Assembly (NCBI GenBank): GCA_016781635.1
Contig: JADDPY010000574.1
Span: 1-17,286, forward strand
Length of the DNA stretch: 17,286 nucleotides
Direction: 5' to 3'
Source: Rubrobacter sp.
GTDB taxonomy: Bacteria > Actinomycetota > Rubrobacteria > Rubrobacterales > Rubrobacteraceae
Below are positions 13,103 to 15,376 of the stretch, piece after piece. Made by a program: the position numbers and the translations under genes. Every line of letters starts with the position of its first letter. The first letter of the stretch is position 1. The notes under the pieces were generated by a model. That model was not told the DNA's origin. It saw only the letters and a program-made list of their open reading frames with translations, and did no database searches.

Positions 13103-13144
13103 GCCCACGCTAGTAAGAAGTGAGTTTCTGGGAACCCGCGCTTC

Positions 13145-13180
13145 GAGACCGTCTGAAAAAGAAGTTGGTGGCTGGCTACG
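13145..13180 (+). repeat. Left terminal inverted repeat of the IS5-like element
   Basis: The first 17 bases match the right end perfectly. The next 19 match at 14 of 17 aligned positions, allowing one single-base gap on each side. Preceded by TTC. Confidence 0.8.
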
Positions 13181-13185
13181 CTGAG

Positions 13186-13773
13186 ATGGTTGGCAGGGTT
13201 ATGATGTCGGCGGTACGCTCGGACGTGGGGAAGGACGGTAAGGTATCCCTGGTGGTCGTCAACTACCCGACGGTGTCGCGGGAAGACCTCGGTTGGGTGC
13301 AGTCCATCCGGGCCGAGCACGACGAGCTCTACTACGGGGTGGCCGATCCCCACTTCACGTTCGTGTTCCCCGTCTTCGGCTTCGACCGCGGGCGTTTCCT
13401 CGGGCACGTGAGGGAGCGCGCCCGGGGCGTCGAGGGGATACGCTTCGCGTGCAGGTGCGCCACGGTGGTCAAGGACGCCACGAATGAGTACACCCACGTC
13501 TTCCTGGTCCCCGACGAGGGCCACAGCGGGATCGTCAAGCTGCACGACCGCCTCTACGGGGGCCCGCTGGCGCCGCACCTCAGGCTCGACATCCCGTTCA
13601 TTCCTCATATCGGCATCGCCAACTCGCTCGACCCGATGGTCTGCAAGCGGCTCGCCGACGGGCTCAACCGCGGGGAGTTCGAGATCGAGGGCTCCGTCGA
13701 CGCGCTCGACGTGGCGAGCTACGAGCACGACCGGGTAACGACGATCGAACGGGTGCCCCTGGAAGGGCCTTAG
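13186..13773 (+). CDS. 2H phosphoesterase / 2'-5' RNA ligase superfamily protein (element cargo)
   Basis: 195 residues from ATG 13186. The family's two histidine motifs are HFT in DPHFTFVFP (His codon 13351-13353) and HIG in PHIGIAN (13606-13608). The second has Gly where Thr or Ser is usual, so activity is uncertain. Relatives act on 2',3'-cyclic or 2'-5' linked nucleotides, tRNA ends, or nucleotide second messengers. The conserved fold begins near VSLVVVNYP (from 13243), so the start could also be ATG 13201, ATG 13204 or GTG 13225; none has a strong ribosome binding site. The frame stays open back to GTG 13120, but that lies outside the element and would translate the inverted repeat. The TAG stop interlocks with the opposing transposase stop. 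Confidence 0.82.
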   Translation: MVGRVMMSAVRSDVGKDGKVSLVVVNYPTVSREDLGWVQSIRAEHDELYYGVADPHFTFVFPVFGFDRGRFLGHVRERARGVEGIRFACRCATVVKDATNEYTHVFLVPDEGHSGIVKLHDRLYGGPLAPHLRLDIPFIPHIGIANSLDPMVCKRLADGLNRGEFEIEGSVDALDVASYEHDRVTTIERVPLEGP

Positions 13774-14648
13774 GCTCGGCGCGCCAATCTTCTCGCCATG
13801 AGCCACGCCATCGCGGCGTAGACGAAAGCCTCCCCGGTGGCGCACAACCGCTCGTGGTCCTAGCCCATCCGGCGGTTGTGCGAGATCCAGGCGAAGGTGC
13901 GCTTGGCCACCCAGCGGCGCGGCAGGTTCTCGAAGGCCGGCGGGCGTTTGGGCAGCTTGCCGAGGTCCATCTCGCGGCCCTCTTCGAACCACTCTCTCGC
14001 CCAGATCCGCAAAACCTTCTCGGGAGGAGGCTTCGGGGAGCGGTTGACGACCTCGACCTCCACGCCGAGCTCCTCCTCGACCCACTCCTTCCCCCTACCC
14101 CGGTAGACGGCATCGACCCACAGGTACGAGAGGCGCGGGAGCCGATCCCGTGCGGGCTCTAGCAAGCGCTTGATCCCGTCTTGGTCGGGGACCTTCGCGC
14201 TGTGGACCCTCGCCTCGACCACGAGCCCTTCGGTGTCCACCAAGATGTGGCGCTTCCTGCCTCTCACCTTCTTGCCGCCGTCGAAGCCCCTCTGTTCGCC
14301 GCCGCCTCCGCTCGTCTTCACGGACTGCGCATCGACGATGCCCGCGCTCGGCTCGGGCTCCCGGCCGATTTGCTCCCTCAGCCGCCGCCGCATCGCCCGG
14401 TTGAGCCCCTGCCAGGTGCCGTCGAGCCTCCACGCCCTGAAGTAATGGAACACCGTCTTCCAGGGCGGGAAGTCCTTCGGCAGCATCCTCCATTGGCAGC
14501 CGGACTTCAGCGCGTAGAAGACGGCGTTGAGGATCCCGCGGATGCTGTGGAGTCTGGGTCTCCCACGCCGTTTCGGTGCCGGAAGATGTGGCTTCAGCAG
14601 CGACCATTCGGCGTCCGAGAGGTCCGTCGAGTATTTCTTGCTCGACAT
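13770..14648 (-). pseudogene. IS5-family transposase, disrupted by an amber codon and loss of the catalytic Glu
   Basis: An IS5-family DDE transposase. The N-terminus YSTDLSDAEWSLLKPHLP, helix-rich region and GRKRHILVDTEG segment are typical. Catalytic D106 (IVDAQSVKT) and D179 (LWVDAVYRG) are present, but the expected Glu in the WVVERTFAW-type motif is K249 (WVAKRTFAW, codon 13902-13904). A TAG at 13860-13862 ends the open frame at 262 residues. Translation beyond it continues the family's C-terminus (DHERLCATGEAFVYAAMAW) to a TAA at 13770-13772, giving an ancestral length of 292. AAG (Lys) is expected where TAG now stands. Two independent lesions suggest the element cannot move by itself. 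Alternatively, 13860-14648 may be annotated as a truncated CDS. Confidence 0.88.
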
Positions 14649-14657
14649 AGATCGGAC

Positions 14658-14693
14658 CGTAAGCCATCCACCGACGCTTTTTCAGACGGTCTC
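14658..14693 (-). repeat. Right terminal inverted repeat of the IS5-like element
   Basis: Read on the minus strand it begins GAGACCGTCTGAAAAAG, identical over 17 bases to the left end, and stops ten bases before the transposase ATG. It is followed on the plus strand by TTC. Confidence 0.8.
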
Positions 14694-14820
14694 TTCTGTT
14701 TATGCTTGCCCGAGAAGTAATTCAGTCGTTGCGAAACTGTTATCCCATTGCGCCCGTTGTGTCACCTTGTCCCGTTATCGTTCTAAAGGTAGGGAGGACG
14801 AACTGAAAGGGAGTACGGAG

Positions 14821-15231
14821 ATGAAGCGGATCATGGTTATGGTTACGGTAGCGGCCCTGGCCCTCATGCTTACGGCGGGCACCGCTCTGGCGGCCAGCTT
14901 CTACGGCCACTCCTACGCGGAGACGATCTACGGCACGAGCGGGGACGACGTCATCGGGGGGGTGGGCGGCGGGGATTACCTCTCTGGTGGGGCGGGCAAG
15001 GATACGGTGAGCGGCGGGCAGGGTGACGACCTCGTTCGGGGTGACGCTGGGGCCGATTCTCTCAAGGGCGGGGCGGGCTCCGATCGCATCCTCGGCGGCA
15101 CTGAGAACGACACGATCGTGTCTGCGGGCGACGGGCTGGGCGACGTAGTCGACTGCGGAGCCGGTACCGATGTAATCACTGCCGACCGCTACGATCAGGT
15201 CACTGGCTGCGAGAAGGTCAGCCGCGTCTGA
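14821..15231 (+). CDS. Small secreted RTX-type calcium-binding repeat protein
   Basis: 136 residues. A signal peptide (about 1-24, cleavage after TALA) is followed by hemolysin-type nonapeptide repeats from about 37 to 100, seen as GTSGDDVIGG, GGAGKDTVSG, GQGDDLVRG, GAGSDRILGG and TENDTI. The C-terminus has two cysteines (C112, C130) in a DCGAGTDV...VTGCEKV arrangement that could form a disulfide, common in small actinobacterial RTX-like proteins. It should fold as a calcium-stabilised beta roll outside the cell; no catalytic domain or type I secretion partner is seen. ATG 14821 is chosen because it starts the signal peptide and follows AAAGGGAG (14806-14813). A longer open frame to 14527 runs into the mobile element and is not credible. 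Confidence 0.88.
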   Translation: MKRIMVMVTVAALALMLTAGTALAASFYGHSYAETIYGTSGDDVIGGVGGGDYLSGGAGKDTVSGGQGDDLVRGDAGADSLKGGAGSDRILGGTENDTIVSAGDGLGDVVDCGAGTDVITADRYDQVTGCEKVSRV

Positions 15232-15258
15232 GAGCATCACGCAAGCATAAGTAAGGTT

Positions 15259-15294
15259 GGCCGGGGTCCTTCGGGACCCTGGCCTTTTCGTTTC
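15259..15294 (+). terminator. Strong intrinsic terminator after the RTX gene
   Basis: An 11-bp stem with one G-T wobble (15259-15269 with 15274-15284), capped by a TTCG tetraloop and followed by TTTTCGTTTC. It separates the RTX gene from uvrC. Confidence 0.9.
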
Positions 15295-15376
15295 TCCAAA
15301 ATACGGTCCATGCCTCCGGAACGGCTGTCGACCCGTAGACGTGCGGGTTCGCGCGGGGCTCCGGCGCCGCGGGGGA

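Follow-up and report, generated by a model that had tools for sequence, protein, structure and literature searches.

We studied a stretch of 17,286 bases from Rubrobacter sp. (contig JADDPY010000574.1), called the window below, and within it an insertion sequence (IS) of the IS5 family at positions 13145–14693. The element is 1549 bp long, is bounded by terminal inverted repeats (TIRs) and contains two genes, one for a transposase and one for a 2H phosphoesterase (PE). Its parts are the following:

13142–13144, no strand, read from the sequence: left TTC, putative copy of a 3-bp target-site duplication
13145–13161, plus strand: far (cargo-side) TIR, 17 bp perfect, weakly extended to ~36 bp
13186–13773, plus strand: PE gene (PF13563), the 2H phosphoesterase passenger
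13770–13773, no strand: overlapping stops of PE (plus strand, 13771–13773) and the transposase frame (minus strand, 13770–13772), a junction that is identical in a second copy of the element (genome G035)
13770–14648, minus strand: IS5-family transposase (DUF4096 and DDE_Tnp_1), frame broken by a TAG at 13860–13862
14677–14693, minus strand: TIR on the side of the transposase start, 17 bp
14694–14696, no strand, read from the sequence: right TTC, putative copy of the target-site duplication

Both TIRs carry the sequence GAGACCGTCTGAAAAAG, and the two inverted copies are identical in 17 of 17 bases. They form the sole perfect inverted pair of 17 nt in the window; at 16 nt there is one further, unrelated pair. 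TTC is found directly outside both ends, although an agreement of three bases alone is weak (chance of 1 in 64). The first-pass annotation had described these inverted ends with their flanking TTC, and we recovered them at the positions listed above. It had also extended the repeats to 36 bp. Such an extension is present but weak, as 24 of 36 bases are identical in an ungapped alignment, and over positions 18–46 the same score or a better one came up in 29 of 2000 shuffles. The left, cargo-side end of the window element shows 81.6% identity over 38 bp to that end of the G035 copy at which the transposase starts, and this likeness supports a TIR longer than 17 bp. As in other IS5-family elements, we thus found TIRs (17 bp, perfect) together with short target-site duplications, the latter of uneven length.

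The transposase (13860–14648, minus strand) matched NF033580 (transpos_IS5_3) with 169.9 bits compared to a curated cut-off of 110, which places it in the IS5 family, and both DUF4096 and DDE_Tnp_1 scored above their cut-offs. An in-frame TAG follows codon 262, and 29 further codons lead to the stop at 13770–13772. The Glu of the RRWV.ERTF stretch, which by the family motif we take to be the E that completes the DDE triad, is a Lys in the window copy and a Glu in all 12 other copies of a 13-copy alignment. With this substitution and the early TAG the window copy has no intact triad, provided that the Glu is the residue we take it for. Judged from the sequence, the transposase is likely dead, and the window copy is probably immobile and has lost its autonomy.

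The PE open frame (13120–13773, plus strand) matched PF13563 with 47.2 bits (gathering cut-off 27) and its product has the YjcG fold. The consensus motif of 2H phosphoesterases is H-x-T/S. The His residues of both motifs (His56 and His141) are invariant in all 23 aligned members. The first motif reads H-F-T in 21 of them and H-F-A in P0007 and P0015, while the second reads H-x-G or H-x-A in all 23, so that a pair of H-x-T/S motifs was not observed. In their second motif the 23 aligned members depart from this consensus. The same form occurs in relatives outside the element and is thus a subfamily trait. We regard the passenger as a YjcG/LigT-type 2H phosphoesterase with a putative enzymatic role. 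In-frame ATGs lie at 13186, 13201 and 13204. At the position where the relatives of PE start (13243–13245) the window has GTA and the G035 copy GTG, and hence translation of the window PE would have to begin upstream. The two genes are arranged tail to tail and their stops overlap, in agreement with the tight packing noted in the first-pass annotation.

We searched 197 genomes for PE and found matches in three: the window's own genome, G035 (86%, residues 16–195) and G002, where the match is a tail of 40 residues. G035 is the uncultured Rubrobacteraceae AVDCRST_MAG03 and belongs to another genus. On its stretch CADCUT010000002.1 the whole unit is present (L003, 794–2338), with 83% DNA identity to that of the window over the full length. 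The likeness ends at the TIRs and we found no similarity between the flanks; the ends and the internal stop-overlap junction are as in the window, and the transposase of this copy is unbroken. The earlier suggestion that the phosphoesterase travels with the element is borne out by this copy. A gene unrelated to transposition lies inside the TIRs (PE within 13145–14693), and by the comparison of these two copies passenger and IS would have moved as one unit. The search for further copies with both genes, the same ends and different flanks gave the one in G035 and none further in the window's genome. The tail in G002 (L004, 1501–1620) is 58% identical, its adjoining genes are sortase-like by eye and no exact TIR pattern was found near it; it may be what is left of a chromosomal PE gene in the genus of the window. 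Among metagenome proteins, 14 (P0001–P0014) are 71–93% identical to PE, and for 13 of them the longest contig measures 1–6 kb.

The element lies close to uvrC, which is present in all ten genomes of the window's genus. We compared the uvrC loci of eight of these ten. In four (G009, G008, G003 and G001) the left neighbour gene is followed by uvrC at 37–120 bp, with no PE or transposase between them. At the same locus G002 has ~1 kb of other DNA and G005 ~1.8 kb of unmatched DNA, G004 could be aligned only in part and the contig of G007 starts near uvrC. The right flank of the window (14697–15370) was unmatched in the same-genus relatives at this locus, and therefore the exact empty site that the first-pass annotation had proposed to look for could not be shown. 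Between the element and uvrC there is also a small gene (~14821–15231) with RTX-like glycine-aspartate repeats, as judged by eye, which is unmatched in the four relatives whose left neighbour abuts uvrC. PE and IS could in principle have been misjoined in a metagenome assembly, and the assembly of the window's genome is fragmented (707 contigs, 77.7% complete, 3.3% contamination). However, the separate assembly G035 has the identical junction and the window matches the conserved row of left neighbour and uvrC on both outer sides of the element, so that an artefact is hardly credible.

At least 48 of the 197 genomes contain a relative of the transposase. We fetched 40 loci around the better transposase matches and around TIRs and scanned them for TIR pairs. 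A tree was computed for 25 transposase copies from these 40 loci plus the window and L005; loci that lacked two clear ends (14) or a transposase (4) were left out. Plain elements of 884–965 bp account for 19 of the 25 copies, and the other six lie in longer elements, whose passengers were identified by Pfam:

Window: 1549 bp, PE
L005 in G035: 1545 bp, PE
L080 in G008: 1651 bp, O-methyltransferase with one internal TAG
L081 in G037: 1952 bp, metallo-beta-lactamase-fold (MBL) hydrolase
L082 in G003: 1495 bp, DUF4440/SnoaL-like protein, transposase out of frame
L083 in G001: 2079 bp, alpha/beta hydrolase

In all six the passenger occupies the same slot, with the transposase stop on one side and the far TIR on the other. 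The window's transposase falls into a clade of nine (support 100/100) with five cargo-bearing and four cargo-free members, in which most inner forks are unresolved. On the tree the cargo label requires three changes, two of which are forced by well-supported branches. This is a tighter clustering than that of shuffled labels, which required 5.5 changes on average and as few in 3 of 500 cases. The finding is somewhat larger than first claimed: this is an IS5 clade with an optional and varied single-gene cargo slot. The initial interpretation holds in so far as PE appears to move as a unit, but PE is only one of several passengers of the clade. IS copies with the same ends but without PE had been named as a result that would speak against it; 19 of the 25 compared copies lie in plain elements, and the PE unit recurs in G035.

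The same comparison bears on the idea that PE is not a passenger and instead helps the element, for example by processing nucleic-acid ends while the element transposes or by dampening the response of the host. The stops of PE and transposase overlap in both copies and dN/dS of PE between the window and G035 is 0.27, which speaks for a helper. On the other hand 19 of the 25 related transposase copies do without any extra gene and four carry other genes. In addition, the relatives of PE on chromosomes stand among differing neighbour genes in the five genomes examined. We consider a helper role improbable. Slightly less probable still is a counter-defence cargo, i.e. that PE degrades cyclic oligonucleotide signals like Acb1. 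The first-pass annotation had raised this possibility, for which we found no support in PADLOC, in PHROGs or from phages. The TIR pattern was absent from the viral contigs, where relatives of the transposase reached at most 51% identity. In plasmids the transposase matched 2331 records, each below 60% identity, and PE had two distant matches only (37% and 26%).

We looked for a recurrence elsewhere of the PE, MBL and methyltransferase passengers. Among the 39 genomes of the family that were searched, G002, which is of a different genus than G037, contains a gene 92% identical to the MBL gene of L081. The DNA of the two is 92.7% identical over 916 bp, from the first TIR base to a point before the transposase. 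The G002 copy carries one internal stop and no transposase was found beside it. For the methyltransferase piece of L080 we found a relative of 73% identity in G007, but no TIRs could be recognised in the 3.3 kb examined there.

All of this could be set against another account of the window, in which a plain IS came to lie beside a resident PE with a stray TIR (a solo end or a MITE, i.e. a miniature inverted-repeat transposable element) on the opposite side, and the row never moved as a whole. Stray ends of this kind do exist, since besides the plain copies we counted ~40 TIR pairs only 130–145 bp apart, which we class as MITEs, in the 39 family genomes, and L083 may be just such a chance row. 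For PE, however, a chance row is already contradicted by the G035 copy, in which the unit has the identical junction and exact ends between unrelated flanks in another genus, and the TIR-side boundary of the MBL passenger is likewise identical in two genera. We regard a chance origin of the window unit as very unlikely.

Our preferred reading is that the unit is a transporter IS, an IS5 element that carries a passenger gene in the slot described above, with capture by an IS and a second TIR as the most likely origin, and we put its probability at roughly 0.8. Several observations weigh against it. Movement is read from the comparison of copies and no transposition was observed. There is a single copy in the window's genome, the assembly of which is fragmented as described above. 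The G035 copy lacks a target-site duplication (ACA / TCT), as do the cargo elements L081 and L083. The window transposase is likely dead and the window PE lacks the usual start codon, so that both window genes are of doubtful function; the methyltransferase of L080 has an internal stop, and in L082 the transposase frame is disrupted. Finally, L083 could be a chance row of MITE, gene and IS that never moved.

Transporter ISs with passenger genes have been described (PMC3129680, PMC7986276), and they resemble the window unit in that an ordinary IS with its TIRs contains a gene unrelated to transposition. What differs here is that a single IS5 clade accommodates five kinds of passenger in the same slot and that plain copies and MITEs with the same ends occur alongside. 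The modular IS231/MIC231 elements of the Bacillus cereus group likewise combine one backbone with varied passengers inside the TIRs (PMC2266710, PMC1196294). They also include cassettes that lack a transposase, and MIC231 is moved in trans by the IS231 transposase (PMC1196294). IS231, however, belongs to the IS4 family and has its extra DNA between the left TIR and the transposase, whereas here we have IS5 elements with the extra DNA after the transposase stop. TIMEs (Tn3-derived inverted-repeat miniature elements) are summarised as small elements able to make an intervening DNA segment mobile (PMC4133298), which is similar to the capture route proposed below, but they have 38-bp ends and duplications of 5–6 bp. 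Tn3-family transposons with passengers have also been described, one of them enclosing two IS5 transposases, and are not IS5 elements with passengers (PMC7371123). In the titles and abstract openings of the open-access literature (subscription journals and ISfinder lie outside this scope) we recognised no passenger case in the IS5 family or in Rubrobacter. The kind is known; what seems to be new is its IS5 variant, together with the likely intermediates. When a small IS carries one gene as cargo, annotation easily overlooks it, as the passenger resembles an ordinary chromosomal gene, and the elements may be a route for small enzyme genes to spread within Rubrobacteraceae genomes. Plain, MITE, likely intermediate and cargo forms side by side would allow a direct study of the step from an IS to a gene-carrying transposon.

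The IS5-family DDE transposase would recognise two outer TIRs and move the intervening DNA including one passenger gene. For a capture, a host gene would come to lie between a plain IS of ~0.94 kb and a second TIR that belongs to a MITE or to a further IS copy. The outermost TIRs would then be used as a pair, and the inner TIR would be lost along with most of the second element, in stages from an IS and a MITE around a gene to a MITE reduced to its end and at last to the TIR alone. Different genes may have been captured in the same way in Rubrobacteraceae and some of the products may have spread. Two likely intermediates suggest that an IS achieves such a capture jointly with the end of a MITE in its vicinity. 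In L083 the far end is a MITE-like stretch of ~145 bp, and a decayed TIR is located just after the transposase, beside half a host repeat. In L082, which directly adjoins a plain IS, the far end is 89% identical over 27 bp to the end of the MITE L102. We also observed that ~61 bp of upstream DNA (75%) are common to these two unrelated passengers (L082, 3694–3754; L083, 1215–1275); this DNA lies beside a TIR or a TIR relic and contains part of the host repeat.

The two PE copies differ at 31 of 132 synonymous sites (dS 0.28), whereas their transposases differ at 83 of 186 (dS 0.68; Fisher p 1.4e-4), which hints that cassettes pass between IS backbones. In steps of 90 bases the identity of window and G035 was 79–94%, mostly ~90%, over 13190–13863 including the transposase tail, 71–91% in the transposase body and 63–67% at either outer end. 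Over its final 107 bp the transposase shows 86% identity when the two PE copies are compared with each other and 69–81% when either is compared with five others, while the transposase bodies of the two are 80% identical and thus within the 78–83% of other pairs. In a modular gene-capture clade, cassettes of a single gene, the transposase 3' tail and the far TIR would pass between backbones by recombination within that tail, and new ones would arise from the outer ends of an IS and a nearby MITE. If true, a very small element would act somewhat like a cassette platform. We offer this as a tentative extension that is rather doubtful at present. The stretch of 89–91% at 14179–14358 within the transposase body lowers its probability, a tree uniting the transposase bodies of window and G035 was only just rejected (approximately unbiased test, p 0.047), so that non-sisterhood is not certain, and uneven selection on synonymous sites could produce a similar dS picture.

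The MITEs occur at many places in G037, G034 and G032; examples are L102 (1122–1263), L103 (1302–1442) and L117 (1045–1186). The interiors of the four that we compared differ considerably. For a census of TIR sites we hand-picked 60 regions from the known sites, leaving out several at contig starts. A TIR pair, MITE-sized ones included, was present in 23 of them. In 37 no partner TIR was found, often as contig ends were nearby. Looser long pairs were seen in L157, L174 and L198, with a transposase-tail match inside the pair of L174. Given these looser pairs and the partnerless sites near contig ends, more cargo elements may exist. In L197 (G004, 507–2740) a TIR pair surrounds a minus-strand frame of 559 codons, glycosidase-like by eye, with no transposase match and no clear duplication; this is possibly a mobile insertion cassette.

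Target-site duplications read TA in L080 and L082, TCT in L079, L085 and the MITEs L102 and L103, TCTA in L090 and TAGA in L109; we found none in L005, L078, L081, L083, L086 and others. Elements and MITEs are often located within an intergenic repeat, the halves of which resemble CTATTCACC..GA.TGC and TTCTCGGAAGTT. One exact half-site pattern was present in 16 of the 39 family genomes, with 43 occurrences in G037 and none in the window's genome, and the reversed control gave none. The left flank of the window resembles one half of the repeat (GAGTTTCTGGGAA), the right flank not clearly. L080 reads TGCCGCTA, element, TAAGATGTCTTCTCGG with TA at both ends, and its flanks, joined by eye with one TA, resemble the uninterrupted TGCCGCTAAGAGTAGTCTTCTCGG of L026, from which they differ by two bases in length. 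The repeat is one of Rubrobacteraceae and a frequent landing site, as seen in L026 (reverse complement, 3638), L082 (reverse complement, 5104), L091 (reverse complement, 2768) and others. Some of its copies resemble short arrays of ~25-bp units.
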